From: Alphaproteobacteria bacterium
Lineage (GTDB): Bacteria > Pseudomonadota > Alphaproteobacteria > UBA6615
Direction of reading: 5' to 3'
Length of the DNA stretch: 41,305 nucleotides
Assembly: GCA_003230015.1 (NCBI GenBank)
Contig: QIGO01000155.1
Location: 1 to 41,305, forward strand
Positions 1-7,959 of this stretch are shown here, one piece after another. The notes under the pieces were generated by a model. The model did no database searches, was not told the DNA's origin, and saw only the letters and a program-made list of their open reading frames with translations. The position numbers were made by a program, and so were the translations under genes. Numbering within the stretch: position 1 is the first letter of the stretch; every line of letters begins with the position of its first letter.

Positions 1-614
1 CCAATGCCGACACCGACGGCAACGCCGAGGACGGCCAATCGATAGACCGGGTATTTGATATAGACGGCCGCCCCGGAATCCTTGATGACCGAAATGACCG
101 GCAACTGTGTTGCCCCGAACAGCCATTCCGGCGGCTCGAACTGATAGGTCGTGCCGGTCCAGATCGCCAACATCAAATCGGCGGCGACGATGGAAATGCC
201 GATCGTCACCAGGGTCTGGCGCAATTCATCGCCCGCCATGCGCCGGAAGATCAGGACCTGCATCAACACCCCGCTCATGGCCAGCGCCAGCACCGCCACA
301 AGCAGCCCGAAGAACCAGCTGCCACTCGCCTCGGCGGCTTCAAACCCGATGTAGCCGCCCAAAAGATACATCGAGCCATGCGCCAGATTGACGTTACGCA
401 TCAACCCAAAAACCAGCGTGAATCCACTCGCAACGAGAAAATAGAGCCCCGCCAATGTGACCCCATTGAGAAACGTGTTAACGAAGGTTTTCTTGCGCCC
501 CAGGGCGCCAACCAGCCAATCCGGCCAGACCGCGAAAATCATCCACAGGAAAACGGCCGCGGCCAAAAAGATGACGATCGCCCAAAAAGTGTGGCGCTCG
601 ATAAACGGCCTCAT
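1..614 (-). CDS. livH: Branched-chain amino acid ABC transporter permease, LivH type (partial)
   Basis: This is the N-terminal ~204 residues of an inner-membrane permease of the LivH family; the gene runs off the left edge. It is absent from the ORF track because it has no stop inside the window, but the minus-strand frame is open from 614 to 1. Several hydrophobic segments are visible, and the stretch GLMRNVNLAHGSMYLLGGY is the typical LivH region after the first core helices. LivH proteins form the membrane channel with LivM and work with LivF/LivG ATPases and a periplasmic binding protein. The N-terminus carries an extra helix (FWAIVIFLAAAVFLWMIF) ahead of the core. An in-frame ATG also exists at 647. 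Neither start has a strong ribosome binding site, so the start is uncertain. Partner genes probably lie to the left. Confidence 0.9.
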   Translation of the reverse strand, partial: MRPFIERHTFWAIVIFLAAAVFLWMIFAVWPDWLVGALGRKKTFVNTFLNGVTLAGLYFLVASGFTLVFGLMRNVNLAHGSMYLLGGYIGFEAAEASGSWFFGLLVAVLALAMSGVLMQVLIFRRMAGDELRQTLVTIGISIVAADLMLAIWTGTTYQFEPPEWLFGATQLPVISVIKDSGAAVYIKYPVYRLAVLGVAVGVGI

Positions 615-1035
615 GGCTCGCGGCGCATGCGCGCGGCCTGTCCGCATACCAGAGGTTGCGGCATCACTTGGGTCCTCCCCCGGGGCGGCACCTCCCTCTT
701 ACGTGGAGTACACCCTTCCTCACGCCGGCGACCGGCACCTGGCTGCCTCTTCGTCGCTGGAGCCCAATATGGACTGTCATAAAGGGTGTCGCGAGATGAT
801 CGCAATCGCAACGCCTTCACGACCCTGTTTCGGGTAAGATCGGGTAAAGTTCCTCCGCCATGCTATTTTTTCGGGGCGGCGGCCTCGAGAATTCGGCCAC
901 GGTGGCGGTCCCATCGTCGAAAGAGCACGCGAGACAAATCATGTCATAGGCGGCGATGGTGCGCACCACCGGGCACATGCCGGACCGCCACCTCGCTTTT
1001 AAGACGGGTAAAAATGTGTAAAATCCTCTTCCACA
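615..1035. promoter_or_regulatory. Structured divergent control region between livH and the small TIM-barrel gene
   Basis: I see no convincing gene here, but there is unusual symmetry. A perfect 11-bp inverted repeat GGTGGCGGTCC (901-911) pairs with GGACCGCCACC (982-992). Between the arms lies a perfect 12-bp palindrome, TGGTGCGCACCA (957-968). Outside the arms sit two related direct-repeat pairs: GGGTAA-N4-GGGTAAA (832-848) and GGGTAA-N4-GTGTAAAA (1006-1023), each with repeat starts 10 bp apart, about one helical turn. The region lies upstream of both livH (minus) and the gene at 1036 (plus), so it probably holds their promoters and operators. No clear -35/-10 pair was identified. Short ORFs in the track here look like shadows. 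Confidence 0.5.
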
Positions 1036-1734
1036 ATGGTCGATCTAATGACATGGCGGATCGCTCTGCGATCCCCCGGCGTAACACTCGGGCCGGGCCT
1101 GCCGGCGGCTGTCGTCACGGCCGAGCCACGTTTTCGCCATGAGAGAATGCCGGCCGAAATTGGCCTCTTATTACCCACCAACGAAGGCCCCAAACAACTG
1201 ATCGACGCAGTCGTCGCGGATCCGGCCCGCTGCGGCGACGCCATCCTCGGCCTGTTTATGGCCAATCCTTTCCTCAACATATCCCTGGAGGGTCCAAGAC
1301 TGACCGGCGCCGGCGTCCGTTGGGTCGCGAACCTTCCCAGCGTCGAACAGCAGGACGAGGATTTCTCCAAACACCTGGCTGACGTCGCTTTGGATCGCGA
1401 GCGCGAATTGGACTGTCTTTCCAGATTTCGCGCCCAGGGGTTCCGTATTGCCGTCGTCGTCGCCGATGGACCAGGTGCTGTGGCGGCGGCCGCCATCGAG
1501 CCCGACACCATGATCATCCTGCCGCGCGTGGCCGATTTCGCCGCGGCATTCCCCTCTCTTCGCCAGCGCGGTGCGGCGGCGCAGGCCGTCTATGAGGCCA
1601 CGCGCGCCAACGGCTGGCACGGCCCGATTTTAGGCCTCGGGAAAGCCCGGGAAGCCCAACATCAGGGGCTTTGGCCCGAACGCCTGGACGGCTTGCTCTG
1701 CCGCCCGATCCGTGTTTCACATGAAATGAGCTAG
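1036..1734 (+). CDS. Small divergent PEP-hydrolase/TIM-barrel family protein
   Basis: This 232-residue protein resembles a shortened, diverged member of the family called PEP hydrolase (formerly TIM-barrel signal transduction protein). The segment TGAGVRWVANLPSV corresponds to AGFAGAVNFPSC in the neighbouring large regulator, and the order of beta-strand-like hydrophobic stretches also matches (VTLGPGL, AEIGLLLP, DAILGLFMANPF, FRIAVVVAD, DTMIILP). The C-terminal part with the family's GGP region and final strands looks shortened or absent. It converges tail-to-tail with the large regulator; the stop codons overlap by 4 bp (1731-1734). The start is uncertain: ATG at 1036 or 1051 fits the N-terminal alignment, but neither has a good ribosome binding site. 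Overlapping minus-strand ORFs show no family resemblance. The function is unknown; it may be a non-catalytic sensor or a decaying paralogue. Confidence 0.6.
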   Translation: MVDLMTWRIALRSPGVTLGPGLPAAVVTAEPRFRHERMPAEIGLLLPTNEGPKQLIDAVVADPARCGDAILGLFMANPFLNISLEGPRLTGAGVRWVANLPSVEQQDEDFSKHLADVALDRERELDCLSRFRAQGFRIAVVVADGPGAVAAAAIEPDTMIILPRVADFAAAFPSLRQRGAAAQAVYEATRANGWHGPILGLGKAREAQHQGLWPERLDGLLCRPIRVSHEMS

Positions 1735-3548
1735 CCGGAAAGCCCAAATCGCTTAATCTTGTTATAGAGGGTCTTGCGCGACATCCCCAACGCCTGCGCG
1801 GCCCGGGTGCGGTTGAACCCATGGCGCCAGAGGGCATCGACGATCCTGTCCTTCTCGGTGCGGACATTGCCGTCGGCACCGCTCTTTTGCCGCAGCAATG
1901 GCAAAAGCTCGGCCGGCTGAACCGGTTCGCTGCGCAACGGCCCGGCCAGCGCCCCAAGAACCGAGCGCAATTCCGCCTCGTTGCCGGGCCAAAGATGGGC
2001 CTGCAGGCACTGAATTGCCGCGAATGAAAAGAATGACCGATCCATGCTGGTGCTAAGACTATCGGCTGCCCGGGCGCTGACGATGGCCATAAGATCGTCG
2101 ATGCGCTCTCGCAACGGCGGCACACGCAGTGTCCAGCCGGCCATATGTGTCACTAGATCGGCTTCCAGCCCGGCTCCCAGCAGGTCCTCCTCCACCCGGC
2201 CCGCCATCACCGGTATATCGCAAACCAGCACGACACGCGGCGCCACTGGCAGGGTTCGCCGGGTCCCCGGCGCCCGAAACACACCGTCGCGCAGCGCCCG
2301 GGCCAAACGCCGTTGCGTCGCCCCCGGCAGACGGTGTGGTGCATGGATGACCAAAAGGCCGACTTCGCTGTCGGCCAAAGCCGGCCGGCGTTTGGCCAGG
2401 GTATCGGGATGCCCGAACAGGATGCTGCGCGCCCGGGCTGGAAAGTCTTCTCCGGCGACGTCGACATGCAGCATGCCTTGGGCACGGGCCGGATCGGCCA
2501 AACCGCTCAGGGCTTGCAGAACCGGCATTGGCCCCAGTCCCGGTTCTGCCAGCAGCAGGACGGCGTCGGAGGCCCCCGCCATTGTGCGCAGGCGGCGCAA
2601 AAAATCCAGATGGGCCTTCGAGCGGCCGACAAAGCCAAATCTCTGCGACCAGGAAACCAGGCCGGCACTCTCATTGTCTAGCGCCGCCCGCCGCTTGCTG
2701 GCTTGGCGAAAGGCGTCGACCTGATCGGCGACGGAAACCTCCAAAGGCATACGGTCGAAGGTGGAGCCGCCCACATAACCGTCGATGGGTGCCAGGGCAA
2801 GAATGCGGCCAAGATCTTCCGCCGTCGCGATCGGTCCGCCTTCCAGCAGAAACCGTGTATCCGGGTTGATGCGCTTGACCAGGCGGCCGATCTCGCGGGC
2901 CACGGTTGCCACTTCCTCGATCGTCGCCCGACGGCGATGGCCCAGCGCCCCACCCACATTCCAGCCCAGATTGAGGCAAATATGGTCGAGACCCGCATCC
3001 GCCGCGAGCCGTGCCTGGGTCCGGGTCGCGCAATAAAACATCGACGTGAGACCCGCATCCTGCGCCGCCCGCAATTGTTCCACCTCGATTTCAATGCCGC
3101 GCCCCGCTCGCGCAAGAATCTGCTGCATCGGTCGCGAAAAATGCATACAGCTTGGGAAGTTAACAGCCCCGGCGAATCCGGCGTGGCGGATCGAGTCCGC
3201 CTCGGCCACAGGATCGAACCGCGGCCCCCAGACATTGACACCCAGCAGAATCGGCACCCCGCATTGGGCCAGCAATTCCTCCCGCGCAAAGCCGTCCGTC
3301 AGGGTCCGTGCGTCAAAGATCGGCAGCATACAAGCAATCGAGGGTGCCCCCATATTGCGCAGCCGGCCAGCACTGATCGCCAGCAGAAAAGCCGCCCCGC
3401 CGCGTTCGGCCGCCAGGGCGGTATTCCCCGACCCGATGCACCGATAAGAAATCCAGATTTTCCGCCGATCGCAGTCAACGGCGACCTCCCAGGACCGTCG
3501 CGTCCGCTGGATACACGCCGGTCCGAAAACCCCAACGCCGGGCCTCAT
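1731..3548 (-). CDS. Transcriptional regulator: TIM-barrel (PEP hydrolase) + degenerate AAA + Fis HTH
   Basis: The predicted protein has about 605 residues and three parts. Residues ~30-290 form a PEP-hydrolase-family TIM barrel (LLGVNVWGP, AGFAGAVNFPS, LEGGPIATAEDL, GYVGGSTFDRMPLE). Residues ~300-545 resemble the sigma-54 activator AAA domain, keeping RVPPLRERIDDL and LWPGNEAELRSVL. The C-terminus (NRTRAAQALGMSRKTLYNK) is a Fis-type helix-turn-helix. The AAA domain is degenerate: the Walker A position reads AEPGLGPMPVL with no GK, the Walker B position reads LLVIHAPHRL without the acidic pair, and GAFTGA is missing. It therefore probably does not hydrolyse ATP or activate sigma-54 polymerase, and may act like a TyrR-type or sigma-70 regulator. 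The track ORF begins at 4046, but that part overlaps the cytochrome gene. ATG 3548 is the first plausible start, although it lacks a good ribosome binding site. Confidence 0.8.
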   Translation of the reverse strand: MRPGVGVFGPACIQRTRRSWEVAVDCDRRKIWISYRCIGSGNTALAAERGGAAFLLAISAGRLRNMGAPSIACMLPIFDARTLTDGFAREELLAQCGVPILLGVNVWGPRFDPVAEADSIRHAGFAGAVNFPSCMHFSRPMQQILARAGRGIEIEVEQLRAAQDAGLTSMFYCATRTQARLAADAGLDHICLNLGWNVGGALGHRRRATIEEVATVAREIGRLVKRINPDTRFLLEGGPIATAEDLGRILALAPIDGYVGGSTFDRMPLEVSVADQVDAFRQASKRRAALDNESAGLVSWSQRFGFVGRSKAHLDFLRRLRTMAGASDAVLLLAEPGLGPMPVLQALSGLADPARAQGMLHVDVAGEDFPARARSILFGHPDTLAKRRPALADSEVGLLVIHAPHRLPGATQRRLARALRDGVFRAPGTRRTLPVAPRVVLVCDIPVMAGRVEEDLLGAGLEADLVTHMAGWTLRVPPLRERIDDLMAIVSARAADSLSTSMDRSFFSFAAIQCLQAHLWPGNEAELRSVLGALAGPLRSEPVQPAELLPLLRQKSGADGNVRTEKDRIVDALWRHGFNRTRAAQALGMSRKTLYNKIKRFGLSG

Positions 3549-4486: not shown

Positions 4487-5059
4487 ATGAGAAGTTTAAC
4501 CATAGCGGCGCTCATCGGTGCCGTGCTGGCGTTAACCTTGGCGGTACCCGGCGTACGGGCCGCGGAGGGCCCGCCCATCTCGGGCTCCGTGCAGAATTTC
4601 GACGTCCGGGACGAGCCGGTACCGATGCCGCAAATACCCTTGCAGACAAATCTTAACCAGGACCGGCCCCTCTCGGATTTCCGCGGCAGGGTCATATTGG
4701 TTAACTTTTGGGCCACTTGGTGCACCGGGAGTTGGCGTGAGCTGCCGACCCTCGAACGGCTACAGGCCAGGCTTGGTGGTGATAGTTTCACCGTCGTCAT
4801 TGTCAGCCAGGATGTTGAGGGCTGGCCGGTGATCGAGCCATTCCTCAAGCAGCGCCGCTTCGGCTTCCCTGAAAGCTACTATGACGCCGGTTTCAAGCTC
4901 GGAGATGCCGTCAACCTTCCGCCGCAAATGGGGTCGATACTGATCGACGAGCAAGGGCGCGAGGTCGGCCGCCTGGATGGCCCGGCCGATTGGGATACCG
5001 ACGAAGCGGCGGCACTCATTCAATATTACATAAATGCTGCTAGTGACGGTGCGACATGA
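4487..5059 (+). CDS. TlpA-like thioredoxin-fold protein with a CTGS active-site motif
   Basis: This 190-residue exported protein has a signal peptide (LTIAALIGAVLALTLAVPGVRA) and a TlpA/ResA-type thioredoxin fold (GRVILVNFWATWC). The active-site segment reads WCTGSW, so the resolving cysteine is replaced by serine (C79, S82), and no other cysteine is present. CxxS thioredoxin folds cannot form the internal disulfide; relatives act through mixed disulfides, as isomerase-like or glutathione-linked proteins, or as redox-dead binding proteins. It is a tandem paralogue of the next gene: both begin with PPISGSVQNF after the signal peptide, but the next one keeps CGPC. The ATG at 4487 directly follows AAGG, an unusually close ribosome binding site. 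Confidence 0.88.
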   Translation: MRSLTIAALIGAVLALTLAVPGVRAAEGPPISGSVQNFDVRDEPVPMPQIPLQTNLNQDRPLSDFRGRVILVNFWATWCTGSWRELPTLERLQARLGGDSFTVVIVSQDVEGWPVIEPFLKQRRFGFPESYYDAGFKLGDAVNLPPQMGSILIDEQGREVGRLDGPADWDTDEAAALIQYYINAASDGAT

Positions 5060-5113
5060 CGCCATGGCGTGTCCGTCGATGCGGCATGGCAACCTCTTGC
5101 GCAGGAGTATGAG

Positions 5114-5698
5114 ATGAGGAAATCGGTTATCGCTGGAGCAGGCATATTGGCGGCTGTTGCCACAATGCTGCTGTTCGAGACCCCTGCCGCGCTCGCCGAT
5201 GTTCCGCCCATATCTGGATCGGTGCAGAATTTTGTCGCCTTTGACGAGCCGATACCCGCGTCAATCATCCCCTTGAGCACCAGAGACGGCGGCGAACAGA
5301 CATTCGAGGATTTCCGCGGCAAAGTCGTGGTGGTCAATTTTTGGGCGACTTGGTGCGGCCCCTGTGTGCGCGAGATGCCGACCCTGGCCAAGCTTCAGGA
5401 ACATTTCGCCGACAACGATGATTTCGCCTTCGTCATCGTTAGTCAGGATCGCGGCGGCTGGAAGGAAATCGCGCGTTTCATGAAAAGGCTGAAGCTGGAT
5501 TTCCCCAACAGTCTTCTCGATGACAAACTGAAGCTGAGCCGGCCCATGCAGGTGCGCAGCCTGCCCGTCGTGGCCATCATTGACCGCCAGGGCGGCGAGG
5601 TCGGCCGCCTCGTCGGTGGCGCCGAGTGGGACTCCCCCGAGGCCATCGAGCTTATCCAATACTATCTGGACGACGACGGCGGTCACGGCACCAGTTGA
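5114..5698 (+). CDS. TlpA-like periplasmic thiol:disulfide oxidoreductase (CGPC)
   Basis: This ~194-residue protein has a signal peptide ending near ALADVPP and a canonical TlpA/ResA thioredoxin domain with ATWCGPCVREMPTL (C81 and C84) and a cis-proline region RSLPVVAIID. Such proteins reduce periplasmic disulfides, often apocytochrome or copper-site thiols, and are recharged by DsbD/CcdA-type membrane proteins; a DsbD-like gene follows 32 bp downstream. The track ORF starts at 5069, but the ATG at 5114 is preceded by AGGAG at good spacing and begins the signal peptide (MRKSVIAGAGILAAVATMLL), so it is preferred. It forms a tandem pair with the upstream CTGS paralogue, separated by 54 bp. Confidence 0.92.
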   Translation: MRKSVIAGAGILAAVATMLLFETPAALADVPPISGSVQNFVAFDEPIPASIIPLSTRDGGEQTFEDFRGKVVVVNFWATWCGPCVREMPTLAKLQEHFADNDDFAFVIVSQDRGGWKEIARFMKRLKLDFPNSLLDDKLKLSRPMQVRSLPVVAIIDRQGGEVGRLVGGAEWDSPEAIELIQYYLDDDGGHGTS

Positions 5699-5730
5699 TG
5701 CCCCGCGAAACCCGAACAAGGAACGAAGCG

Positions 5731-7959
5731 ATGAAGACGAACGCCCTGCGCTTTGGCCGTCTGCTCACCCTGGGACTGGCGGCGCAAATTATCGCGCTGA
5801 CCGGCGCTTTCGCTCAGACCGACGGCGCCGCCAGCGACTGGGACGGTTCGCTTGACGAAGTCCCGGCCCGCGCCCGGCTCATCGCCGCCACCACCGGTGT
5901 CGGCCAGTTGGACGAGCTCCGCGTCGGCATTGAAATTGAGCTGGAGCCGGGGTTCAAGACCTATTGGCGCACCCCGGGCGGCCCGGGTTTCCCCACGTCC
6001 ATAGATTGGGAGGGCAGCACCAACCTGGATACGGCGGCGTTCAAATGGCCGGCGCCGACCCGGTTCGACGTTCTCGGCTTCGATTCCTTCGGTTATATAG
6101 ACCACGTCATTTTCCCCATTGAAATAATTCCCATAGAGATCGGCCAGCCGGTCCAACTGCGGGCCAATGTCGGCTATCTTGCCTGCGACGATATCTGTGT
6201 GCCCATGTCGGCCGATTTGACGCTTGACCTGCCGGCGGGACCGGCAGCCCCCTCCCAGTTCGCCAATCAGATAGATCAGTTTCGTGCCAGGGTCCCGGTG
6301 ACCGACGGCGTCATGGTGGGACTCAATTTCGAAGGCGCCGGGCTCCAGGGCACGACCGACGCGCCTCTCGTACAGATCGCTTTCAGCGCCACTGAACCGT
6401 TCGTGTCGCCCGATGTATTTGTCGAGGGCCCGGAAGAGATCTTCTTTGGCCGGCCCGAGATGCGCCTCGATGGCAATACAGTGGTCTTCACCGTGCCGGC
6501 CGAGGACGCTTTCGGCGAGGAACAGGTGAACATCTCCGGCCAGCCGTTGCGGGTTACCCTGGTCGAGGGTGGGCGCGCCTTGGAGGCGCGCATCAACCCG
6601 GAATGGGGCGGATTCGACGTCGCCGCACTCAGTCCCGCGATAGCTTCGGGCGGCGGGGTAGGAATCGGTGGACTGGGCGCCGCTGGCGCCGCTGGCGCGA
6701 CTGGCGCCGCCGGCCTGTCGATTTTTGCCGTCCTCGTTTTTGCCCTGCTCGGCGGCATGATCCTCAACATCTTTCCCTGTGTGCTGCCGGTGCTGTCCAT
6801 CAAGCTGTTGTCGGTCGTCGGTCACGGCGGTGGTAGCACCCGCGAGGTTCGCACCGGTTTTCTGGCCTCTGTTGCTGGCATTATTGCCGCATTTCTTGTT
6901 CTCGCGACCCTTGTCGTCGGTTTGAAGGCGGCTGGGCAGACGGTCGGCTGGGGCATTCAGTTCCAGCAACCGCTGTTCCTGGTTGGCATGATCCTCCTCC
7001 TGACCCTTTTCGCCTGTAACATGTGGGGCCTGTTCGAGATCCGTCTGCCGGGTCTCGTATCTGACACGGCCGTTCGGCACTCGGGTGGAACAAGTCTGAA
7101 GGGGCATTTTTTCTCCGGTAGTTTCACCACTCTCCTGGCGACACCGTGCACCGCACCTTTCCTGACCACCGCTATCGGTTTCGCGCTAACGCGGGGTATT
7201 GGCGAGGTTTACGCCGTTTTCACTGCCTTGGGAGTAGGCTTGGCGATGCCGTTCATATTAATTGCGGCCTTCCCCAAAATGGTCACCAAACTGCCCAAGC
7301 CGGGTCCCTGGATGATCACGGTCAAGAAAGTGCTGTCCCTGGCGCTGGTGGCGACCGCGGTATGGCTGCTGTCAGTCATGGCGGCACAGGTTTCCCTACT
7401 CACCGCATCCACCGTGGCCGCCTTGATGGTCGTCGTCGCATTGATCTTTGCCATGCGCAAATTCATACCCGCGCGCGCCGGCCGGGCAGTACCGGTGGCG
7501 ATCGCGGCGGTCGCCATATTCGCCTTCGCCACGCCGGCACTTCTGCCCCGTTCGGAGGTTGCATCAGCCGGCGTCGAGGTGCGCGCCGAGGTCGCCTATC
7601 AACCCTTTGATCCGGCGGCCATCCCGGCGCTGATATCCACCGGCAAAGTCGTATTTGTCCATGTTACCGCCGATTGGTGCATAACCTGCAAGGTCAATGA
7701 GAAACGTGTCCTCGAGGTTGGTGACGTCGCCTCGGCCCTGGCCAGGGACGATATAGTTGTCATGGAAGCCGACTGGACCCGACCGAACGACGATATCGCC
7801 GCCTACTTGGCAACCTTTGACCGGTTTGGTATTCCGTTCGACGTTGTTTACGGTCAGGACACGCCCAATGGCAAAACCTTGCCGGAGCTGCTGACGGCGA
7901 ACGCGGTTTTGACCGCCCTGGGTAATGCCAGCCCCACCCTGCGGCTGGCCCTAAACTAA
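5731..7959 (+). CDS. DsbD/ScsB-like transmembrane thiol:disulfide interchange protein
   Basis: This 742-residue protein moves electrons from cytoplasmic thioredoxin to periplasmic thiol proteins. After a signal peptide there is a large periplasmic N-terminal domain (to ~residue 300) with a CxxxC pair in YLACDDICVP (near 151/155). A Gly/Ala linker (GIGGLGAAGAAGATGAAG) follows, then a membrane domain with conserved cysteines in FPCVLP (~350) and ATPCTAPF (~473). The C-terminal thioredoxin domain has VTADWCITCKVNEKRVL (C650/C653). All cysteine pairs expected for a full DsbD relay are present. The length and N-terminal domain are closer to ScsB, the suppressor of copper sensitivity protein, than to classical ~570-residue DsbD. 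ATG 5731 follows AAGGAACG. The thioredoxin genes on both sides are its likely partners. Confidence 0.92.
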   Translation: MKTNALRFGRLLTLGLAAQIIALTGAFAQTDGAASDWDGSLDEVPARARLIAATTGVGQLDELRVGIEIELEPGFKTYWRTPGGPGFPTSIDWEGSTNLDTAAFKWPAPTRFDVLGFDSFGYIDHVIFPIEIIPIEIGQPVQLRANVGYLACDDICVPMSADLTLDLPAGPAAPSQFANQIDQFRARVPVTDGVMVGLNFEGAGLQGTTDAPLVQIAFSATEPFVSPDVFVEGPEEIFFGRPEMRLDGNTVVFTVPAEDAFGEEQVNISGQPLRVTLVEGGRALEARINPEWGGFDVAALSPAIASGGGVGIGGLGAAGAAGATGAAGLSIFAVLVFALLGGMILNIFPCVLPVLSIKLLSVVGHGGGSTREVRTGFLASVAGIIAAFLVLATLVVGLKAAGQTVGWGIQFQQPLFLVGMILLLTLFACNMWGLFEIRLPGLVSDTAVRHSGGTSLKGHFFSGSFTTLLATPCTAPFLTTAIGFALTRGIGEVYAVFTALGVGLAMPFILIAAFPKMVTKLPKPGPWMITVKKVLSLALVATAVWLLSVMAAQVSLLTASTVAALMVVVALIFAMRKFIPARAGRAVPVAIAAVAIFAFATPALLPRSEVASAGVEVRAEVAYQPFDPAAIPALISTGKVVFVHVTADWCITCKVNEKRVLEVGDVASALARDDIVVMEADWTRPNDDIAAYLATFDRFGIPFDVVYGQDTPNGKTLPELLTANAVLTALGNASPTLRLALN

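Follow-up and report, generated by a model that had tools for sequence, protein, structure and literature searches.

A shortened PEP_hydrolase-family barrel as probable partner of a barrel-containing Fis-type regulator in alphaproteobacteria

Regulatory circuits on which a paralogous copy of a domain acts by protein contact are known from yeast Gal1/Gal3, where the sensor is derived from an enzyme, and from truncated paralogues such as TrlR-TraR and plant microProteins. NtrC-type enhancer-binding proteins have a sensor-AAA-Fis layout and are subject to antiactivators such as NifL-NifA. For the barrel described here, the structural reference is PDB entry 2P10, Mll9387 of Mesorhizobium, the canonical member of the PEP_hydrolase/TBST family (PF09370). 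UPF0261 and PEP_hydrolase proteins are both widespread, and each corresponds in bacteria to one half of Tm-1, a virus-resistance protein of plants (PMC5028733). In the literature searched, no function was found for the bacterial UPF0261/PEP_hydrolase pair, and no description of the bacterial regulator, of the shortened barrel ("mini" in the following) or of the regulator-mini pair. The family, its fold, short genes annotated as "phosphoenolpyruvate hydrolase family" and the theme of a regulator with a paralogous partner are known already. In Gal1/Gal3, TrlR-TraR and the microProteins the folds differ from the present one, whereas here enzyme, sensor and presumed modulator would be versions of one TIM barrel; the likeness is an analogy of working, not of membership.

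The window analysed is a stretch of 41,305 nucleotides from an alphaproteobacterial draft assembly (contig QIGO01000155.1). The mini gene occupies positions 1036..1734 of the forward strand and encodes 232 residues, and open reading frame, Pfam, profile and AlphaFold results together assign it to a diverged (beta-alpha)8 barrel of the PEP_hydrolase/TBST type. The match to PF09370 is weak, with E 0.0027 and 17.4 bits against a gathering cut-off of 33.8 bits, so that by score the protein falls outside the family; five other minis score above this cut-off (34.9-73.7 bits), and a search of NCBIfam with the window mini gave no match. The best PDB match of a profile built from seven mini sequences was 2P10 (E 1.2e-7). 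The AlphaFold model of the window mini (pLDDT 86, pTM 0.86) shows eight ordered strands, and a structure search with this model returned the six 2P10 chains at ranks 1-6 (E 2e-9 to 4e-8, TM 0.58-0.67), which places the predicted structure in the same (beta-alpha)8 fold. Because of the eight ordered strands and the retrieval of 2P10, the window mini is apparently a shortened but whole barrel of the family. A sequence-only reading had taken it for a short, diverged relative of the barrel family of the neighbouring regulator and had proposed a fold comparison; the relationship holds on all three lines, the weak Pfam match, the profile match to 2P10 and the predicted barrel. "Mini" thus denotes a shorter protein (232 against about 290 residues) and not a half barrel in the window group, whose model has all eight strands; several minis elsewhere measure just 166-209 residues, and their final strands are gone.

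Compared with 2P10, with which the mini shares the fold and a detectable sequence relation over the central strands, it is reduced in length, scores under the Pfam cut-off in the case of the window protein, and is strongly altered in conserved residues. At 71 positions conserved among the enzymes, the minis keep 24% and the regulator barrels 60%. Every mini keeps N125, P127 and E150 (Mll9387 numbering), and most keep D103-P104; G56, R59, Y167, G233, S258 and E266, invariant in both enzymes and regulators, are mostly lost, along with almost every residue that the family conserves in its C-terminal strands (GGP, GxSS); some of these losses may be overstated, since the alignment is uncertain in the diverged mini ends. 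The set of residues presumed from conservation to form the ligand site of the PEP_hydrolase/TBST family (GRxR..G, GGP, GxSS..R) is not retained in the minis. As the GGP and GxSS residues are among those lost, titration of a ligand by the mini, one of the roles proposed earlier, is less likely.

The regulator is encoded on the reverse strand and consists of a barrel domain, the presumed sensor (2703..3440, PF09370, E 2e-52), a degenerate AAA/sigma-54-interaction domain (2220..2630, E 0.0027, under the cut-off and assigned by reading the sequence) and a Fis-type HTH_8 DNA-binding domain (1746..1859, E 3e-13 in Pfam). It thereby resembles the NtrC type in its sensor-AAA-Fis layout, and a separate partner may control it as in NifL-NifA; it differs in that Walker A and GAFTGA are gone. 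The Walker A position reads AEPGLGPMP, GAFTGA is absent, and Sigma54_activat stays under its cut-off. As both motifs are missing, a role as sigma-54 activator is unlikely. A relative in another genome (G859; L138 4987-7113) has kept both Walker A and GAFTGA and may therefore function as a genuine sigma-54 activator. The predicted model of the whole window regulator was poor (pTM 0.53). At about 3436-3445 (reverse strand), at the start of the barrel, the regulator frame is shifted in comparison with its relatives, with the conserved FLIGA and IGSGN in different frames; this may be an error of the draft assembly or a real lesion, and the mini is unaffected.

Mini and regulator lie tail to tail, the TAG stop of the mini at 1732-1734 and that of the regulator, CTA on the forward strand, at 1731-1733, so that both share CTAG at 1731..1734; the 4-bp overlap of the stop codons had been read correctly. 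On the other side of the mini, a LivH-type ABC permease (3..647, reverse strand) is the first gene of a transporter/UPF0261/PEP_hydrolase operon, which the end of the contig truncates; the PEP_hydrolase of the window genome was found on contig C196. In all window-group loci that are long enough, a Liv-type ABC transporter, UPF0261 and a canonical PEP_hydrolase form one operon divergent from the mini. The regulator adjoins the mini convergently in every locus of this group, with a GntR gene in between in two (L028, L036). Convergence with the regulator also occurs in Bradyrhizobium, Phyllobacterium, Azospirillum and G859. On the rhizobial symbiotic plasmids pMLa and pNGR234a mini and enzyme operon are divergently oriented, and in G924, a genome of another class that we took to be gammaproteobacterial, the mini lies ahead of the regulator, both being on one strand. 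The conserved feature is the linkage between mini and regulator, and convergence is one of several layouts; of the paired arrangement pointed out beforehand, the pairing recurs and the convergent layout is not general. In several rhizobial, Bosea, Terrarubrum and Qingshengfaniella loci (L110, L111, L149-L151, L153-L154, L114-L116), genes for a cupin and a Gfo/Idh/MocA oxidoreductase stand ahead of the regulator, a hint of a sugar-type pathway.

Used as a single-protein query against GTDB contigs, the window mini found nothing; an alignment-based scan of the same contigs yielded 23 named loci with a mini, from Sneathiella, Pelagibius, Denitrobaculum, Hwanghaeella, Kiloniellales, other alphaproteobacterial assemblies and a few drafts labelled otherwise. 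The mini was also found in six further genomes of the class, a set that overlaps with these 23 loci, and relatives in the window group are 41-68% identical. The mini-regulator pair, a search for which had been suggested, recurs in about 25 alphaproteobacterial loci. Searches seeded with the regulator led to distantly related regulators in Bradyrhizobium, Phyllobacterium, Shinella, Azospirillum, Rhizobium, Sinorhizobium, Mesorhizobium, Bosea, Terrarubrum and Qingshengfaniella plasmids and in G924, with a mini in each locus inspected. Profiles built with one subfamily left out at a time recovered 37 of the 38 mini seeds (E 1e-15 to 1e-30 among the matches listed); the minis are therefore one family, and their detection is not circular. 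Previously annotated members of other mini subfamilies are the short RefSeq genes NGR_RS30970 (pNGR234a), MAFF_RS36505 (pMLa) and D3093_RS29615 (Azospirillum), named "phosphoenolpyruvate hydrolase family protein"; compared with the window mini they are shorter (196-209 residues), stand in other gene orders, and are annotated by family name alone, with no recorded function. The pMLa locus is also the source of the protein in 2P10, its PEP_hydrolase (285/285 residues identical), and beside this gene the locus carries a mini of 196 residues and a regulator of the present type.

Presence of the mini follows the regulator and not the enzymes: it was found in all 46 loci with an intact regulator, one of these minis being split by an insertion, and in none of the 36 loci with UPF0261 and PEP_hydrolase lacking an intact regulator. 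The split mini belongs to Shinella sumterensis (plasmid locus L148, 9741-13116), and the insertion resembles an IS66-family element. One gene flagged as a mini, in L082, proved to be a broken regulator; in this locus (4805-5937, genome G579) the regulator barrel lies in two frames near UPF0261/PEP_hydrolase and a mini is absent, and regulator and mini seem to have been lost together. Fisher's exact test of mini against regulator presence, with L082 counted against the association, gave p of about 2e-22, a value that overstates the evidence because the loci are related, many coming from related genera and hence not independent, and because the window group was found partly via the mini. The regulator-seeded loci taken alone (8, plus G859, G924 and 16 plasmids) all have a mini.

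The pairwise distances of minis correlate with those of the regulator barrels (r = 0.90 over 24 loci). Partial correlations were 0.83 for mini and regulator given the enzyme and 0.37 for mini and enzyme given the regulator (permutation p 0.0005), and inside the window group the mini-enzyme value fell to -0.05. A maximum-likelihood tree separates minis, regulator barrels and enzymes into three groups, so that the mini is an old lineage and no recent copy of a neighbour; the long mini branches make the deeper order of the tree unsafe. With hhalign, the minis matched the enzymes at E 2e-7 over 92 columns and the regulator barrels at E 1e-5 over 159 columns. A recent duplication of the regulator's own barrel was considered and rejected, as the match to the enzyme is at least as good and the three groups are separate.

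A direct repeat, GGGTAA-N4-GGGTAA, with a consensus of about TTGGGTAAAATTGGGTAAT, emerged from words over-represented in the region where the permease gene diverges from the mini or GntR gene. The window contains a perfect copy (GGGTAAGATCGGGTAA, 832..847, forward strand) between the divergent permease and mini genes and a second one with one mismatch (GGGTAAAAATGTGTAA, 1006..1021, forward strand) 14 bp before the mini ATG; two more one-mismatch sites occur in the window genome outside the window. With up to one mismatch, the repeat is present in 40/45 regulator loci and in 0/36 others. A gap of 4 alone gives 40/45, other gaps yielding 0-5 loci, and 12 permuted control words were found in 0-5 of the 45 loci. 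Within 300 bp upstream of the mini, 29/45 loci have the repeat at up to one mismatch and 36/45 at up to two; in 35 of these 36 the best site is on the strand of the mini, and the repeat often ends within about 35 bp of its conserved start. The 16 loci that lack such a one-mismatch repeat within 300 bp of the mini include some with a GntR gene in between. GntR/FCD regulators of some loci could bind the repeat; in several repeat-bearing loci, the window included, a GntR gene was not found. Since the occurrence of the repeat tracks that of the regulator, and extends to loci in which no GntR gene was detected, its likeliest reader is the regulator. A perfect second GGGTAA repeat was observed in L152 (872-887), upstream of a sugar ABC transporter operon, and in L077 (1208-1223), the former suggesting a wider regulon.

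We consider it somewhat probable that the mini is a dedicated protein that partners the regulator's barrel, has no catalytic role and is produced under the control of that same regulator; that it would modulate the sensor barrel, be it by inhibition, priming or stabilisation, is suggested by its lack of the sensor's residues and by its following and co-evolving with the regulator. A partnership of this kind had been anticipated and is strongly supported by co-occurrence, co-evolution and the shared operator-like repeat. In the proposed course of events, the regulator barrel, which has kept most of the enzyme-family residues, would sense a metabolite of the transport/UPF0261/PEP_hydrolase pathway, and the Fis-type domain would act on direct repeats TTGGGTAA-N2-TTGGGTAA ahead of both the transporter/enzyme operon and the mini gene. 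The mini, which has lost most of the residues presumed to form the ligand site, would bind the regulator barrel in a mixed barrel oligomer and thereby set its sensitivity or keep it off, and its production under the same regulator would make a feedback loop.

That the mini is a decaying duplicate of the regulator's or the enzyme's barrel, kept by chance, was another early suggestion, in line with its shortness, its weak Pfam score and its fast evolution with long branches; selection and conservation refute it, leaving it with next to no probability, as the gene is intact in about 25 window-group relatives and in five further subfamilies, and pairwise dN/dS, a check proposed at the outset, is 0.09-0.33, indicating purifying selection. 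The mini could also be a stand-alone pathway enzyme with a changed active site, such as a hydrolase or aldolase acting after UPF0261/PEP_hydrolase. The retention of N125, P127 and E150 in all minis and of D103-P104 in most, and the position beside a catabolic-looking transporter locus, would fit such a role, but the 36 enzyme loci without a regulator have no mini, co-evolution is stronger with the regulator than with the enzyme, and several minis of 166-209 residues have lost their last strands; we regard it as unlikely.

Two further readings appear more doubtful still, to about the same degree. In one, the mini is a ligand sink, a soluble protein that takes up the metabolite in competition with the regulator and makes no contact with the latter, as the sensor's fold family and the nearby operator-like repeat would allow; G56, R59, Y167, G233, S258 and E266, mostly lost in the mini, speak against it. 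In the other, the mini is a subunit or inhibitor of a UPF0261/PEP_hydrolase complex and tied to the regulator through regulation alone. The divergent arrangement with the enzyme operon on rhizobial plasmids and the weak residual correlation with enzyme distances (0.37) point this way, but the latter vanishes within the window group and the mini is missing from 36/36 enzyme loci that lack the regulator.

If the mini is indeed a partner of the regulator's barrel, one TIM-barrel family may be used three times per locus, as enzyme, as sensor and as a stripped third barrel that tunes the sensor, with the GGGTAA operator closing the feedback loop; we advance this wider picture tentatively, at slightly less than even confidence. 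The sensor barrel, its dedicated partner and the putative operator would give a handle on the UPF0261/PEP_hydrolase system, through a regulon search based on the repeat and through the inducing metabolite, accessible via binding of the regulator to DNA. The comparison further suggests that the short "phosphoenolpyruvate hydrolase family protein" genes on symbiotic plasmids encode regulators and not enzymes.
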